From: a virus
IMG/VR virus record: IMGVR_UViG_3300043392_000026
Coordinates: 1-28,495 of that record
DNA: 28,495 nt
Strand: one strand, 5' to 3'
The notes beneath the pieces were generated by a model. It saw nothing but the letters and a program-made list of their open reading frames with translations. It ran no database searches and was not told where the DNA came from. Within the stretch, counting starts at the first letter, position 1. The number at the start of each line of letters is the position of its first letter. Below, piece by piece: positions 2,247 through 17,071 of the stretch. Both the position numbers and the translations under genes were made by a program.

Positions 2247-3446
2247 TTAGTCAGTAATCAATGCGATAGCGTCAGCCATTACACCTTTAACCAATACTTG
2301 AGTATCGTTTGCAGAAACGAACTGTACCAATGCTTGCTCAGCAAGGATAGTACGCATGTTGTTTGTAAAGTCGTTACCGTCTTCTCCAATGTTGATTGAA
2401 AGACCTTCGCGGAAACGAACGTTTACAACTGACAAGTCACCACCAACAAAGTCAAATCCTGAACCAACGAGTGCAAGCTCTGGAATCAATTGCATTCCGG
2501 CAACTTGAGTACCGTCAGCAGATTTGAAAGGTGGGATTAAGTAAATACCGTCAGCAGACTTTTGCATATCCATTTGCGCAAGGATGTCAGGGTTAACGAA
2601 TACAGCTGAAGCAGTACCGAAAGCCTTTTGTACTTGTAAAGCCAATGCACGGAACACGTCAAAGTTTGAAGGTGCAGCAGTCGTAACGCCACCACCTGTA
2701 AACGTAGTTGCGTAGTCAAGAAGACCGTTGAGCATTGTGCCATCGCCAGAGAATAACTCAGTTACAGTTGCAACCTCGATACGGCGTAACAAGTTTGCTT
2801 GTAAGTAAGAAACCAACTGCGGAAGGTCGCGAAGCATCTCGGTAGAAACTTTGCAGTAAACTGCGATTTTCTGAACCTTAGCCTCTTTCTCTTTGTACTG
2901 AACAGATACTTTGGTTTTACCAACACCCTCACCTATGAAGATAGGCGTGCCTTGCTCGTTGTACTCTTCAACCCACATTGCTACGCGGTTGTTGATTGTA
3001 CCAACTGAAACAAGACCTAAGTAACGAGATACGCGTGAACGTACTGCGCTAATTACACCTGTGAAAGATGTTAACAACCAATGTGAATCTGAGTCACCTC
3101 CAAGGATAGTGTTTGCCTCAGTTACGTTAACTGCTGCCTTTACTTGGATGTCCACGTTAGCACCTTTGGTGTTGATTGCGTTGTTAATGTCCTCAGCTTT
3201 AGCCTCGAATGCGCTCATCAAAGCCTCACGGAAAGATTTAACTTCTTTTTGTGGCTCGTTGTTAGCTTGTTTCAAAGCCTCTATTTGAGTCTCAACATTT
3301 GTGATCGCCTCTTTAATCGCTGTGACGTCGTTAGCGCTTTTCAATTCTTCGATGGATGCTTTGATAGCCTCAACATCTGTTTGGTTTGCAAAACCCTTAG
3401 TTGCTAGTTTTTCCTCAAGGGCTTTAACTACTTCTTCTACTGTCAT
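2247..3446 (-). CDS. Major capsid protein, HK97 fold (399 aa)
   Basis: Residues 1-70 form a heptad-like charged coiled coil (VVKALEEKLA, IKASIEELKS), as in the delta or scaffolding domain that the prohead protease removes in HK97-type capsids. The body (from about residue 110) has features of the HK97 capsid fold: a threonine- and glycine-rich middle (LFSGDGTMLNGLLDY), FVNPDILAQMD, and a late segment VRFREGLSINIGEDGNDF. The gene lies directly downstream of the protease gene. The length is typical. The start at 3446 is supported by an ATG preceded by an A-rich leader and an 11-base gap from the protease stop. Confidence 0.88.
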   Translation of the reverse strand: MTVEEVVKALEEKLATKGFANQTDVEAIKASIEELKSANDVTAIKEAITNVETQIEALKQANNEPQKEVKSFREALMSAFEAKAEDINNAINTKGANVDIQVKAAVNVTEANTILGGDSDSHWLLTSFTGVISAVRSRVSRYLGLVSVGTINNRVAMWVEEYNEQGTPIFIGEGVGKTKVSVQYKEKEAKVQKIAVYCKVSTEMLRDLPQLVSYLQANLLRRIEVATVTELFSGDGTMLNGLLDYATTFTGGGVTTAAPSNFDVFRALALQVQKAFGTASAVFVNPDILAQMDMQKSADGIYLIPPFKSADGTQVAGMQLIPELALVGSGFDFVGGDLSVVNVRFREGLSINIGEDGNDFTNNMRTILAEQALVQFVSANDTQVLVKGVMADAIALITD

Positions 3447-3457
3447 TTTATTAGAAT

Positions 3458-4378
3458 TTAGAAGTTAGAAATTACTTTGCTCCAATCCAAGGCAGGAGCT
3501 TCTTTGCCTTCTTGAGTGTCTTTAGACGGCTCGGTGTTAGAAGTGCTTTTGGCGGCTTCCTTGCGACGTGTTCCACAGCCTTTGCAAAGTCCGTTACCAT
3601 TGTCGACTGTCATGGTATCGGTTTCTGTTTCGCACGTGTCGCAGTATTCTTTGTTTGCGTTCTCTACAATAGAGATTACAGGTGTAATTGCATTGCTACC
3701 TTTTACAACGGCAGAGCCCTCAACAACTTTCGCCTCGGTAACTGCCCAAAAATAACCATAGTTGTCGGCTACTTCTTTGTTGACTACCTGAGGATAGTAT
3801 TTATCCCAATTCGCCTTCTCGCTTGCGTAGCTTGGTTCGTTGGTATCTACGCAAAGGAAAAGTTTAACGTAGCGCATCCCAACCGAGTGATTCAGAACGT
3901 AGCCGTTTTTATACTGCTCGAACATGAACGGATTACGCTTGTTGTCAATCGTTACGTCAAAGACAAGAGCCTCAGTTGAACCTTCATAGCTTGCACCTAA
4001 CTTGCTCCAAGGCATTTTCTTTGTCGATGCCGTGAAGTCGTTATTTACGTTGTCAGCAATTACGTACTCGAACTCCATTTCATGCTCCTGCAATAAGTAG
4101 AGCGTTTTCATCTCCTGCAAAGACTTTTTCCAAAGACCAGGGATATGGCAGTCCATGTGTGAGTCAATTACATTTGTGGTATTAATACAAAGGCCGAGCT
4201 TCATGGTGCCTAGCTCCATAGCTTGCCCCATGCCATCCTGTTTGATTACCTCGGTTTTGTGGTTGACTTCGCCATAAGAACCGAATACCACATCTCCATG
4301 CTTTAAAGTCGATGTCTTTTTCGCGTATAAAAGCTCTTTGTTAGCTAGTACATCTTTAATTGATTCCTCTCTAGTCAT
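3458..4378 (-). CDS. Probable prohead protease with C-terminal zinc-ribbon-like segment (306 aa)
   Basis: The position directly before the capsid gene, and the motif IDSHMDCHIPGLWKKSL (residues about 71-87), resemble U35-type prohead proteases, which have a conserved Asp and a PGxF/W-SL segment. A central His-Ser pair (NHSVGM) could hold catalytic residues. The segment EAKVVEGSAVVKGSNAITPV matches the usual end of the protease domain. After it come two CxxC pairs (CDTC and CKGC) about 20 residues apart, suggesting a zinc ribbon, and then a low-complexity Ser/Glu/Lys tail that could serve as scaffold. It starts in an ATGA overlap with a 28-codon frame. Catalytic residue assignment is tentative. 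Confidence 0.7.
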   Translation of the reverse strand: MTREESIKDVLANKELLYAKKTSTLKHGDVVFGSYGEVNHKTEVIKQDGMGQAMELGTMKLGLCINTTNVIDSHMDCHIPGLWKKSLQEMKTLYLLQEHEMEFEYVIADNVNNDFTASTKKMPWSKLGASYEGSTEALVFDVTIDNKRNPFMFEQYKNGYVLNHSVGMRYVKLFLCVDTNEPSYASEKANWDKYYPQVVNKEVADNYGYFWAVTEAKVVEGSAVVKGSNAITPVISIVENANKEYCDTCETETDTMTVDNGNGLCKGCGTRRKEAAKSTSNTEPSKDTQEGKEAPALDWSKVISNF

Positions 4379-4518: not shown

Positions 4519-5700
4519 ATGGACTTTTTCAGCAAAGTATTCGCGCTTTTCGGCATCAACAACCCTAATTACTATACCACACAACAAATCGGAACGGTTG
4601 TGCCTGAATGGGTGAACACATCTGATAAGTGGAATTTATACTATTCTATCCCAGAACTAAACGCAGTAATTAACCGATTTGCTGACATGGTGGCAAGTGC
4701 CAATCCAATGATTGTTGACAAAGATGGCAACCCCGTAAAAAATAACGGCAACCCGATTTTCAAACTAATCGACCGACCTAACGCAATGCAGTCTTGGGGC
4801 AAAATGATGAAGTTCGTTGCTATCAATCAGTGCATTACGAATAACGTCATTGTGTATGCTCCAAACGGCTCGTTTGGTAAATTGCAGTTGATGCCTTTAG
4901 CTTTCAATAACGTGAAGATTGTGCCAACCGGTCAGAACCTCATCACAGTTGATTTGAAGTCGTTTATTAAAGAATTTCAAATCCCAATCAGTCGCATCGA
5001 TACCTACACCACATTTTTACCTGAAGAGATTATTTACATCACTGAGGTGGATGGTATTGATATGTTCAACTCACGATCTAAGATTGATGCTTTGAAGATG
5101 CCATTGAGTAACCTACAAAAGCAATACGAAAAGAGAAACGTGCTACTTCGCAATATGTTCTCACTTGGTATTTTGTCGAGCGACAACAAAGACGGCATTT
5201 CATCACTCCCTTTAGAAGATGAGGACATCAAGAAAATCCGCAAGGATATGAAGGCAAGAAATGAAGGTGAGGTTATTATAACCGATAAGCCTATCAAATT
5301 CGAGCCTATGACATTCCCGGTTAAAGATTTGATGCTATTTGAGGAAATGACCGCAGATAAGCTAGCCATTATTGATGCCTACGGATTGAATCAACATATG
5401 TTCGGCCAAGGTGAAGGAGGGAAAGGCTCAACTTTCTCAAATGTTGAAATGGGAGAGCGTCAGGCGTACAACTCAACTATTATTCCTACAACGGAAATCC
5501 TATACGATGAGTTCACTAAGCAAATGAAGCTCCATGAGGAGGGAATGTACTTAGTGCCAGACTTCTCACACATCTCTGTACTTAAAGAAGACCAAACGCG
5601 AAGTGCTGAGGCTATGTTTAAACGTGCAAGCGCAGTTGAGAAGATAAGCAACATTACGCCACTTAGCGATGAGGAAAAGCGTAATTTACTCGGCATCTAG
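4519..5700 (+). CDS. Portal protein, HK97-type, encoded on the opposite strand (393 aa)
   Basis: This protein forms the ring at the capsid vertex through which DNA is packaged. It begins MDFFSKVFALFG, as many phage portals do. It contains a long middle with stem-like helices (LSNLQKQYEKRNVLLRNMF), DLMLFEEMTADKLAIIDAYG, an FGQGEGGKGSTFSNVE stretch and a final IVPTTEILYDEF-like region resembling the conserved end of HK97-family portals. The length is normal and the frame is intact. It is the only plus-strand gene in the window. Its last 15 bases overlap the end of terL tail to tail, with no terminator between. It faces the protease operon divergently. Its location between terL and protease is canonical; only the orientation is odd. 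Confidence 0.82.
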   Translation: MDFFSKVFALFGINNPNYYTTQQIGTVVPEWVNTSDKWNLYYSIPELNAVINRFADMVASANPMIVDKDGNPVKNNGNPIFKLIDRPNAMQSWGKMMKFVAINQCITNNVIVYAPNGSFGKLQLMPLAFNNVKIVPTGQNLITVDLKSFIKEFQIPISRIDTYTTFLPEEIIYITEVDGIDMFNSRSKIDALKMPLSNLQKQYEKRNVLLRNMFSLGILSSDNKDGISSLPLEDEDIKKIRKDMKARNEGEVIITDKPIKFEPMTFPVKDLMLFEEMTADKLAIIDAYGLNQHMFGQGEGGKGSTFSNVEMGERQAYNSTIIPTTEILYDEFTKQMKLHEEGMYLVPDFSHISVLKEDQTRSAEAMFKRASAVEKISNITPLSDEEKRNLLGI

Positions 5701-7041
5701 TTTCGGCAACATCGCTTGAACAAACAACGCTAAGCCTGTAACCGCATCAGGCGCATCGTCATTCTTATTTTTACCCTCTTTTTGATAGCCTTTAAGGTTG
5801 TGGATAAACTGCCCATACTCGCCGATTTGGTCGGCTAGGAATCTGAATTTGCGCAGCACGTAGCTACTATTCATTATAATTCGGGTCTCTTTGTTTTGGT
5901 TGTTCACAACAGGCAACAGCCTTGTTTTTGTGGCCTTGCGTAGCGATTTGATAAATATCGCCCCCATTCCATTGGTTTCAACCCTACAATAGCTCACGTT
6001 GTTGTCATCTAATACCTTGGCACAAAGTGGAATTGTCACGTCAGTATTTGCCTTTGAGAAAACCACATCTGTGATGTACACATCTTTTCCGACTATGTGG
6101 CCAATGACAAGGCAAAGGAAGTCGCTTCCCTCGTCAGCCACGTCAATGTAAGCAAATGCGCCTGCGGTGTGTTTCTTGACCGCCTGAACGTCTTTAAATG
6201 TACGTAAGTGCTCAAACAAGCGGCCTTTGATGTCAACAGGTTGCTGCATGTACTCAGCCATCCAAATCTCTTCCCTGGTCTTTTGCTTTTTACGCAAATA
6301 CTCATCGGTTGTCATTACAGCCTCGCAAAACGAAAGCAATTCACCATCCTGTTCAATGAGTGCCGGCACAATGATTTGTCGGTCGTAATAGCCTTGTTCA
6401 GTATTTTTACCGATAACGTCGTCACGTGTCCAACGCGTACCAATGTCAATTTCAGCGCATCCGCTTTCTTTACGTGAGTCATGTGTTGCCTCTTTCCATG
6501 AGTGCGTTTTTTCGCGTATCGTTTCACTCATCGCATCTTCCATGGATTTAAAAAGGTCATCGGTAATGGCTAGCTTACTTGCACCGAATCCAATGATTGT
6601 ACCGCCAACGCCTCGGCCAAAATATCCGACTTGTTTTGAGTAATTAGTCGACCAAGCATCAACGCTACCTCGGTCATCTGATAGCCTTACTTCTGGAAAT
6701 ACCTGCATGAATTTTTCTGATCGTACAATATCCCTTGCATCGTATGAAAGTTTTTGAGCAAGCGTAGCAGTACAGGTGTTTCGCATTACGCTTTCAGTTG
6801 GGTGTCTACCAAGTGTCCAAGCGCAAAACAATGAGGTTATGTAGGATTTACCTGCGCGGGGTGGCAATGATACTGCCAGCGTTCTGATTACTCGGTCGTC
6901 AATATCCTGAAACGCCTGTGCGATTTCTTTGAGATACGGCCGTGATTTGAAAAAGTCATAGTCATAGAAGAAACAGAACGCAACGAAATTACTCCGTGCG
7001 GCCGATTGCAATAATGGCTTTATTTCATCATAGCTTGTCAA
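5686..7041 (-). CDS. terL: Terminase large subunit (451 aa)
   Basis: The DNA-packaging motor ATPase and nuclease. Walker A is LPPRAGKS (residues 59-66) and Walker B is LAITDD (157-162). The RNase H-like nuclease domain begins AYIDVADEGSD (Asp300), continues through RVETNGMG (about 353-360), and ends DDAPDAVTG (428-436). The length is typical. The only usable start is TTG at 7041: an in-frame TAA lies just four codons upstream and the next in-frame ATG is at residue 86, inside the ATPase. The start overlaps the terS stop by 14 bases, so translation is probably coupled. The 3' end overlaps the opposing portal gene by 15 bases. Confidence 0.92.
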   Translation of the reverse strand: MTSYDEIKPLLQSAARSNFVAFCFFYDYDFFKSRPYLKEIAQAFQDIDDRVIRTLAVSLPPRAGKSYITSLFCAWTLGRHPTESVMRNTCTATLAQKLSYDARDIVRSEKFMQVFPEVRLSDDRGSVDAWSTNYSKQVGYFGRGVGGTIIGFGASKLAITDDLFKSMEDAMSETIREKTHSWKEATHDSRKESGCAEIDIGTRWTRDDVIGKNTEQGYYDRQIIVPALIEQDGELLSFCEAVMTTDEYLRKKQKTREEIWMAEYMQQPVDIKGRLFEHLRTFKDVQAVKKHTAGAFAYIDVADEGSDFLCLVIGHIVGKDVYITDVVFSKANTDVTIPLCAKVLDDNNVSYCRVETNGMGAIFIKSLRKATKTRLLPVVNNQNKETRIIMNSSYVLRKFRFLADQIGEYGQFIHNLKGYQKEGKNKNDDAPDAVTGLALFVQAMLPKLDAE

Positions 7042-15921: not shown

Positions 15922-16827
15922 TCAGTTATCCTGTCGCTCTCCAATCCGTAGCGTACTTCCAATATTCTCAGGATGAAACTCTGGACTGCTCCAATCGAGT
16001 TTTTCAAGTCTTGCGAAGAACTCTTCAGAATTGATTGGACCTGTTGCGTGCTCAAGATAATATTCCGCGATTTCAACTTGTCTTGAATTGAATGTTCCGA
16101 GGCGCTCCAAATTTCTAAGAGTTTTGAGGATGAATGCGTGACGCTGTTGTTTTGGTTGTGTTCCATTTTGAGTTGTTATTTGATTATTATTTGATTGATG
16201 AGGTTTTGAGTATCCGTTTTTTTCCCAAGTGCGAACGGCGGCTTTCCAATCTTTCATTTTGTTTTTGCCTACCATCCAACCATTGCTTTGATAGTGATCG
16301 TAAAATTGCTCGGGGTTTACTTCGTTGTTGCGTTCTTTGCAGTAAGTTGAAATTTCTAAAATTGATGGAATAAGGAATCTTTTTTGCGTATGTATTACTT
16401 TTTCTTCTTTAGAAGGAAAAGTATTAATATCACTTACACTTACACTATCACTTACACTTACACTTACACTTACAGGTTTTTTTTCGGTAAAAAATAACCC
16501 ACTGGGTTCTTCTGGGTTTTTTTGTAACCCACTCGGTTCTTTTGGGTTTTCTTCTTTAGGCTTCTCCTCATCCTTTGGCCTGCCTCCTTTGTAGCCGTTT
16601 TGGCGCGCTCTTTCAGCTCTTACTTCCCACTTTTCAAGGTCTCTTTTCAAGGTTGTTTTTATGGGTTCAAATAAGATTTCAATCATGCGATCAGGAGGCT
16701 CAGGGTTCAAATCATTGACATACCTAAAGAAATGTTTGATTAATTTTCCTGCCTCCTCATCTGAAAGGAGCTCAAAGGTGCTTATCCAATCAGTGTAAAC
16801 AATTACATTCTTTTTTCCTTGCGCCAT
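15922..16827 (-). CDS. Replisome-organizer-like protein with DUF6291-like N-terminus (301 aa)
   Basis: Residues 1-80 resemble DUF6291: WISTFELLSDEEAGKLIKHF, FRYVNDLNPEPPD, then the basic GYKGGRPK. A disordered repetitive linker follows (two NPKEPSGL-like units, then alternating Ser-Val-Ser-Asp). A second domain (about residues 160-215; FYDHYQSNGWMVGKNKMKDW) is the pattern seen in phage replication proteins, probably DNA-binding. Such two-domain proteins are thought to start phage replication. I chose ATG 16827 (MAQGKKN); a longer frame to 16869 runs through the terminator hairpin. It is first in its transcript and preceded by a structured leader. Confidence 0.72.
   Translation of the reverse strand: MAQGKKNVIVYTDWISTFELLSDEEAGKLIKHFFRYVNDLNPEPPDRMIEILFEPIKTTLKRDLEKWEVRAERARQNGYKGGRPKDEEKPKEENPKEPSGLQKNPEEPSGLFFTEKKPVSVSVSVSDSVSVSDINTFPSKEEKVIHTQKRFLIPSILEISTYCKERNNEVNPEQFYDHYQSNGWMVGKNKMKDWKAAVRTWEKNGYSKPHQSNNNQITTQNGTQPKQQRHAFILKTLRNLERLGTFNSRQVEIAEYYLEHATGPINSEEFFARLEKLDWSSPEFHPENIGSTLRIGERQDN
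16431..16474 (-). repeat. Hexanucleotide tandem repeat in the replication gene linker
   Basis: On the plus strand, about seven tandem units of cttaca with one variant (ctatca), encoding the Ser-Val / Ser-Asp repeat of the linker. Unit length is a multiple of three, so copy changes keep the frame. Just beside it, 16497-16552 holds two copies of a longer unit around aacccact-ggttctt, coding for the repeated EPSGL. Confidence 0.85.
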
Positions 16828-16852
16828 GTCATTTTTGCAATTTTTGGTAAAT

Positions 16853-16947
16853 AAAAAAGGCCCCAACAAATCGGCAGGAGTCTCACGTCTGCGTCATTAT
16901 TAGGGCCAATAATGCCTATGGATTAACTATGTAAGAGACTCTAATCC
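16853..16947 (-). ncRNA. Structured leader RNA with terminator, upstream of the replication gene
   Basis: Minus-strand elements in order: GGATTA/TAATCC hairpin (16947-16920) with GAGTCTC in its loop; CATTATT/AATAATG hairpin (16914-16895) with GGCCC in its loop; GCAG/CTGC hairpin (16892-16874) with GAGACTC in its loop; then GGGGCC and a T-run. GAGTCTC and GAGACTC are perfectly complementary (a loop-loop pair). GGCCCTAATAA (16907-16897) can instead pair with TTGTTGGGGCC (16869-16859, two G-U pairs) to make a terminator ending in TTTTTT. The two folds exclude each other. A -7 box lies just upstream. No known riboswitch class recognised. Confidence 0.6.
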
Positions 16948-16952
16948 GTCAA

Positions 16953-16960
16953 CAAATATA
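16953..16960 (-). promoter_or_regulatory. Candidate promoter of the replication gene
   Basis: TATATTTG matches the -7 consensus and lies directly after the stop of the 36-aa gene. A TTG is present upstream but at 16 rather than 19 bases. The transcript would begin with the structured leader. Confidence 0.5.
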
Positions 16961-17071
16961 CTAATCTTCTTCAATACAAGGCTTTGCTAACTTAAAAATT
17001 CTGCAAACTTCCCGGTAAGAAATCTTGTGTCCTGGGCTCACAATGACCCGCTTAGTAGTTCGCCTATACAT
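16961..17071 (-). CDS. Tiny basic protein (36 aa)
   Basis: Starts at ATG 17071, eight bases inside the upstream gene, and stops just before a promoter. It begins MYRRTTKRVIVSPGHKISYR and continues with a helix (EVCRIFKLAKPCIEED). Very basic N-terminal half, two Cys. It could bind nucleic acid; no family recognised. Fits end to end between neighbours, which supports translation. Confidence 0.55.
   Translation of the reverse strand: MYRRTTKRVIVSPGHKISYREVCRIFKLAKPCIEED

Follow-up and report, generated by a model that had tools for sequence, protein, structure and literature searches.

The window analysed here is a 28.5-kb virus contig (28,495 nucleotides, IMG/VR record IMGVR_UViG_3300043392_000026), the minus strand of which carries nearly all genes. 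A portal-like gene (4519-5700) lies on the plus strand, while its terminase-like (5686-7041) and capsid-region (2247-4378) neighbours are on the minus strand; as far as these identities can be read by eye, this is an unusual inversion within the head module. Nearer the middle of the contig, a minus-strand gene of the DUF6291 family (PF19808; 15922-16827, Pfam E=4.6e-25) codes for a replication-type protein. The label derives from the annotation of DUF6291 homologues as replication proteins, including the homologue in Flavobacterium phage elemoA, which is annotated “replication protein”. Upstream, an unlisted 36-aa ORF (MYRRTTKRVIVSPGHKISYREVCRIFKLAKPCIEED; 16961-17071, minus strand) was read by eye from the sequence and terminates exactly at a promoter. 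Between the two reading frames lies a leader (16853-16960), in which all previously stated elements are found when the minus strand is read; the original prediction had left the strand open.

The leader begins with the -7 promoter element TATATTTG (16953-16960, minus strand), which matches TAnnTTTG, the Bacteroidota sigma-A consensus. In mapped promoters of Flavobacterium psychrophilum TAnnTTTG occupies positions -12 to -5 (PMC9723704), and therefore the first hairpin is expected to start at about +1/+2; in the window the predicted +1 (approximately 16948) is 1 base ahead of it. A promoter downstream of 16853 would have spoken against the original prediction; the promoter found is upstream of the element. 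The 5’-terminal hairpin, H1 (16920-16947, minus strand), was delineated by folding and comparison and consists of the stem GGATTA (16947-16942)/TAATCC (16925-16920), with compensatory changes at 5/5 pairs (alignment A9), and the 16-nt loop GAGTCTCTTACATAGT. This loop harbours the sequence GAGTCTC (16935-16941, minus strand). A linker (ATAGGCATTATT; 16908-16919, minus strand), the length of which is nearly constant among relatives, leads to a second, terminator-like hairpin, H2 (16859-16907, minus strand). H2 comprises the lower stem GGCCCTAATAA/TTGTTGGGGCC, an internal loop (TGAC/CGAT in the window, possibly a tandem G.A), the upper stem GCAG/CTGC and an 11-nt apical loop, ACGTGAGACTC. The apical loop contains GAGACTC (16878-16884, minus strand), and the original prediction had correctly read it as the exact complement of the H1-loop sequence.

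H2 is followed by a U-run of six T (16853-16858, minus strand), which completes a predicted intrinsic terminator, and, as had been noticed, the ATG of the DUF6291 gene follows after 25 nt. The combination of a G+C-clamped hairpin and an immediate U-run defines intrinsic terminators, and the aligned relatives likewise have a CCC/GGG stem base and a T-run. A simple scanner missed the terminator of the window, since it allows only loops of 3-8 nt. Folding of the single sequence gives modest values (z = -2.0 to -2.2), and 6-8 of 200 shuffles fold equally well; the fold barely exceeds its shuffles, and the case thus depends on the comparison of relatives. A further hairpin, CATTATT/AATAATG, had been proposed as a switch that excludes the terminator. 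It does overlap the 5’ arm of the terminator and reaches -4.6 kcal/mol in the window; the same stretch in relatives, however, averages -1.8 against -1.2 for shuffles, and this unconserved hairpin was rejected as a switch.

Relatives of the window’s own subtype, termed type B, were gathered from 95 contigs by a pattern of linker and terminator base only, which included the linker part AAAGGNATTATT and no loop criterion. All 56 of the 56 unique type B elements nevertheless keep a loop-loop complement of 7-9 nt, represented by nine different sequences (among them GGCTCGAC, GGCTGGAC, GCTCTCACA, GAGTCTCA and CATCCTAC), whereas shuffled loops attain a 7-nt complement in 2.5% of trials. A covariance model of the kind that had been suggested, R2, was built from 18 type B relatives, with both the window and the loop pairing left out, and recovers the window at E=1.1e-10. 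Among 64 distinct R2 matches, 97.3% of cells are paired, compared to 30-49% with partners slid; the lower stem of H2 is 99.5% and its upper stem 100% paired, and double changes occur in 20/26 pairs. The kissing columns show a lower pairing of 91% in this set, at least partly because R2 aligns the GAGTCTC group out of register. The type B linker measures 15 nt in 16/18 sequences, and the U-run is about 20 nt away from the ATG. Linker and H2 internal loop are strongly conserved, the linker having been part of the collecting pattern. In many type B copies the linker could also pair with the terminator arm (AGG/CCT), a short pairing that is absent from type A. An initial scan with fixed GAGTCTC loops had yielded one true relative, L087, and 13 chance matches. 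Type B elements were not matched in the Flavobacterium phages 11b, lillamy and elemoA, in Cellulophaga phage phi13:2 or in one gut phage.

Other IMG/VR contigs show the same layout 5’ of DUF6291 genes, with loops that are different yet matching, e.g., GTAGAAG/CTTCTAC, GAGAGAG/CTCTCTC or GTGCGAG/CTCGCAC. This second subtype, type A, is grouped with type B by architecture only, and the type A model R1 does not detect the window. In alignment A1, comprising 24 type A sequences, RNAalifold finds compensatory changes in 21/24 pairs. With the kissing helix included, 93.8% of cells are paired compared to 35-48% for slid controls, and double changes occur in 31/35 pairs; the rows of A1 were chosen by a scanner requiring a loop match, and hence the type A kissing helix is not independent evidence in these figures. 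Model R1, which was built without the kiss, recovers further copies, and nearly all of the non-seed copies at E<1e-3 carry a loop match of 6-8 nt. Compensatory changes, to which the original prediction had attached particular weight, are thus strongly present in both subtypes.

The spacing is tight in type A as well: in 27/32 copies TTTG and the stem are 5 nt apart, the linker measures 10 nt in 22/24, and the U-run ends 1-4 nt ahead of the ATG in most copies. The TAnnTTTG promoter is located directly 5’ of H1 in most relatives. In the lower half of the type A H2, a 6-bp block consists to 58% of G.U pairs, compared to 0-7% elsewhere. A transcript of the opposite strand would lack these pairs, and H2 is therefore designed for this RNA strand and weakened in mid-stem. 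Type A contains few invariant unpaired bases, and the linker sequence differs between type A and type B.

The genes following the element are diverse. Of 138 distinct downstream proteins, 76 fall into one cluster, which contains the DUF6291 and other initiator-type proteins. The remainder are small ORFs, endonucleases of the HNH or GIY-YIG kind and similar genes. Just after the element, such endonuclease genes and small ORFs recurrently separate it from the initiator gene (L346, L348, L334, L420 and others), which suggests an insertion hot spot at this place. Two relatives of the window illustrate the exchange of parts. Contig L003 is 98% identical to the window up to TATATTTG and thereafter carries another element and another initiator, while L087 keeps the element (93%) next to a different initiator. 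The similarity to L003 and L087 breaks sharply at 16953 and at approximately 16170-16198, inside or after the initiator gene. By this sequence pattern, element and initiator make up a module that can be exchanged, and the element is not bound to one gene.

Nearly all records contain one element per contig; most contigs are incomplete, and copy numbers are therefore minimum values. Four phages harbour two elements, the loops of which always differ within a phage: G053 (GTGAGAG and GTCGCAT), L386 (5500-5597 and 7872-7970; GCTCTCAC and CATCCTAC), L424 (11243-11341 and 12963-13062; CATCCTAC and GTCTTCAC) and Tenacibaculum phage Gundel_1. In L386 and L424 the elements are a couple of kb apart, and different loop types precede one and the same initiator start (MKRDSMIFY).

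Gundel_1 is an isolated phage of Tenacibaculum (PMC8776804), and the one isolate found to carry the element. Its genome (MT732474.1) contains two unannotated copies (16796-16893 and 33896-34001; loops GCTCTCAC and GTAGGATTC), one ahead of a replication protein gene and the other, with a weak U-run (TTTCTTGTATT), ahead of an antirepressor gene; an element lies between a DnaA-like gene and the replication gene. The occurrence in Gundel_1 makes the system accessible to laboratory study. A survey of prophages revealed no elements ahead of DUF6291, except for an element-like copy in the Flavobacterium MAG contig L487 (1657-1770, plus strand; loop CATCCAC/GTGGATG). The assignment to Bacteroidota hosts is based on the promoter type and on gene relatives, together with one isolate and one MAG contig. 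A search of 397 Flavobacteriaceae genomes returned 0 elements, a figure that says nothing on absence, as scoring was limited to 10 candidates per genome, with no positive control included. Among named phages, blastn with the window leader as query returned chance matches only. As the original prediction had supposed, the leader belongs to no known class: Rfam returned 0 matches at the gathering score for the window and 0 at E<=1 for ten relatives, and no account of an element of this kind turned up in literature searches.

Judged by sequence comparison, the RNA of about 95 bases that heads the DNA-replication operon in many Bacteroidota viruses is real, conserved and undescribed. The helices, the loop-loop pairing, the strand, the promoter position, the spacing and the gene context are established at this level, and from this anatomy we infer termination and its control by the kiss. 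Among phages the letters of the loops vary, yet they are almost always complementary, which implies that the loop-loop contact is functional; probably, the contact sets the transcription level of the replication genes. We consider it reasonably likely that the element is a cis-acting phage transcription attenuator leader, in which the terminator’s own loop is engaged by the 5’ hairpin.

According to this cis model, transcription would start at approximately 16948, and H1 would fold first, at the extreme 5’ end of the transcript. The polymerase would next produce H2, the apical loop of which is complementary to the H1 loop, and a kiss over 7-9 bp could form once the top of H2 is made. H2 and the U-run would end most transcripts as an RNA of about 95 nt, while read-through would yield the replication mRNA, with the ATG just after (1-4 nt in type A, about 20 nt in type B). 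Given the short linker (10 nt in type A, 15 nt in type B), the kiss would hinder the closing of the H2 base, and loss or delay of the kiss would result in termination.

We lean slightly towards this direction, where the kiss opposes termination. In type A, a rod of the outer stem P1, the kiss and the full H2 would span about 104 A compared to about 66 A of linker, assuming 2.8 A/bp, approximately 6.3 A per unpaired nucleotide and straight A-form coaxial stacking. On this estimate H2 could not close fully while P1 and the kiss are both in place, which inclines us to view the kiss as a competitor of the closing terminator base. Kissing complexes bend, however, and the conflict may vanish; the kiss might equally stabilise H2, and the sign of the control would then be reversed. 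Moreover, the Gundel_1 copy with the weak U-run indicates that termination may not be the sole output.

Pairing within one RNA and pairing between two identical RNAs cannot be separated by covariation. The stable, terminated leader of about 95 nt might hence act in trans and kiss nascent leaders of other genome copies, thus providing feedback on the replication genes or superinfection immunity, in a manner that could be likened to phage P4 CI RNA or ColE1-type loop-loop systems. The preserved framework with variable loop sequences, the single copy in nearly all contigs and the position ahead of replication genes, once of an antirepressor gene, are in line with such a role, and the different loop pairs in the four two-element phages would be expected if cross-talk were harmful. 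Control in cis demands the same complementarity, and therefore covariation does not favour trans, while the near-constant linker lengths favour cis. Furthermore, the loops of the window and L087 are nearly identical despite different initiator genes, one loop type is common to many environmental phages, and the window proteins scanned or read include no recognised integrase. We consider the trans mechanism unlikely, and to the same degree the notion that the loops form an identity code, according to which a terminated leader would target matching leaders in trans, the loops having diversified to stay orthogonal.

Somewhat less likely still, H1 and the kiss might work like a cap or like a put RNA, by promoting read-through of the polymerase or shielding the mRNA from nucleases, while the terminator mainly insulates from upstream transcription. 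The start of H1 at about +1 is compatible with this proposal, and HK022 putL RNA is also located just 3’ of its promoter and forms two stem-loops (PMC9378689). Yet, the second hairpin is terminator-like here, unlike in put, and the loop identity is free to change, while an RNA that binds the polymerase should keep its contact sequences; the few invariant unpaired bases of type A point in the same direction.

The original prediction of a riboswitch or protein-controlled attenuator holds as far as the structured leader, the loop pairing and the terminator-like hairpin before a replication-type gene are concerned, and fails in its mutually exclusive hairpin. In a switch responsive to a ligand or protein, the binding site could be made up of the linker AAAGGNATTATT and the internal loop TGAA/GGAT, in agreement with the strong conservation of both in type B, where the linker formed part of the collecting pattern. 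However, the type A linker has a different sequence. A core for ligand binding was not recognised as common to the two subtypes, the conserved linker and internal loop being confined to type B. The alternative hairpin is not conserved, no Rfam riboswitch matches, and the differing downstream genes speak against both a riboswitch dedicated to one pathway and autoregulation by a single initiator; accordingly, we regard a switch of this kind as improbable. Finally, we give very little credence to an origin-linked RNA, i.e., a short transcript that would prime or regulate the initiation of phage DNA replication with the gene position being secondary, because, despite one element per contig adjoining initiator genes and the Gundel_1 element between the DnaA-like and the replication gene, the spacing to the ATG is tight, an antirepressor gene is also preceded, and some phages have two elements.

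If the cis attenuator is true, it would represent a widespread, unnamed class of regulatory RNAs in Bacteroidota phages, the gene control of which is little known. In this class a 5’-terminal hairpin would be tied to the loop of the terminator itself, through a pairing that is preserved in evolution although its letters change. The natural series of loops would be well suited to experiments on the tuning of termination by a tertiary contact, and might supply orthogonal RNA switches for use in Bacteroidota, in which tools based on Shine-Dalgarno sequences and sigma-70 perform poorly. Should the loops be an identity code, each lineage would control its own replication operon and perhaps exclude relatives by an RNA-only, loop-specific mechanism.

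Several known systems resemble the element in part. In the rep attenuators of pT181 and pIP501, a promoter, a hairpin and an attenuator precede the replication initiator gene, and loop kissing controls termination; these attenuators require an antisense RNA from the opposite strand. In contrast, no conserved antisense promoter was found opposite the leader among promoters of the sigma-A type (no CAAANNTA position is enriched), and the partner loop is provided in cis. The RNAI/RNAII pair of ColE1 features fully paired 7-nt loops with group-specific sequences and is an intermolecular antisense pair, while the two loops of the element reside in one RNA. The P4 CI RNA and the P1 c4 antisense RNA (RF01695) are leader RNAs of phage operons for replication or antirepressor genes that employ short complementary segments in one transcript, with premature termination as the output in P4. 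The element has no Rfam family match, and, distinct from P4 CI and P1 c4, is built of two kissing hairpin loops, one of which sits on a predicted intrinsic terminator. The put RNA of phage HK022 forms two stem-loops within approximately 70-100 nt directly after a phage promoter, adopts a V fold with a triplex, binds RNA polymerase and acts on terminators (PMC9378689). The element shares the two stem-loops just 3’ of the promoter and differs in that its second hairpin is itself the predicted terminator and its loops pair together. Like an ordinary intrinsic terminator or leader attenuator, it has a G+C stem base and a U-run ahead of a gene; unlike these, it possesses a conserved, covarying tertiary contact that reaches the apical loop of the terminator.
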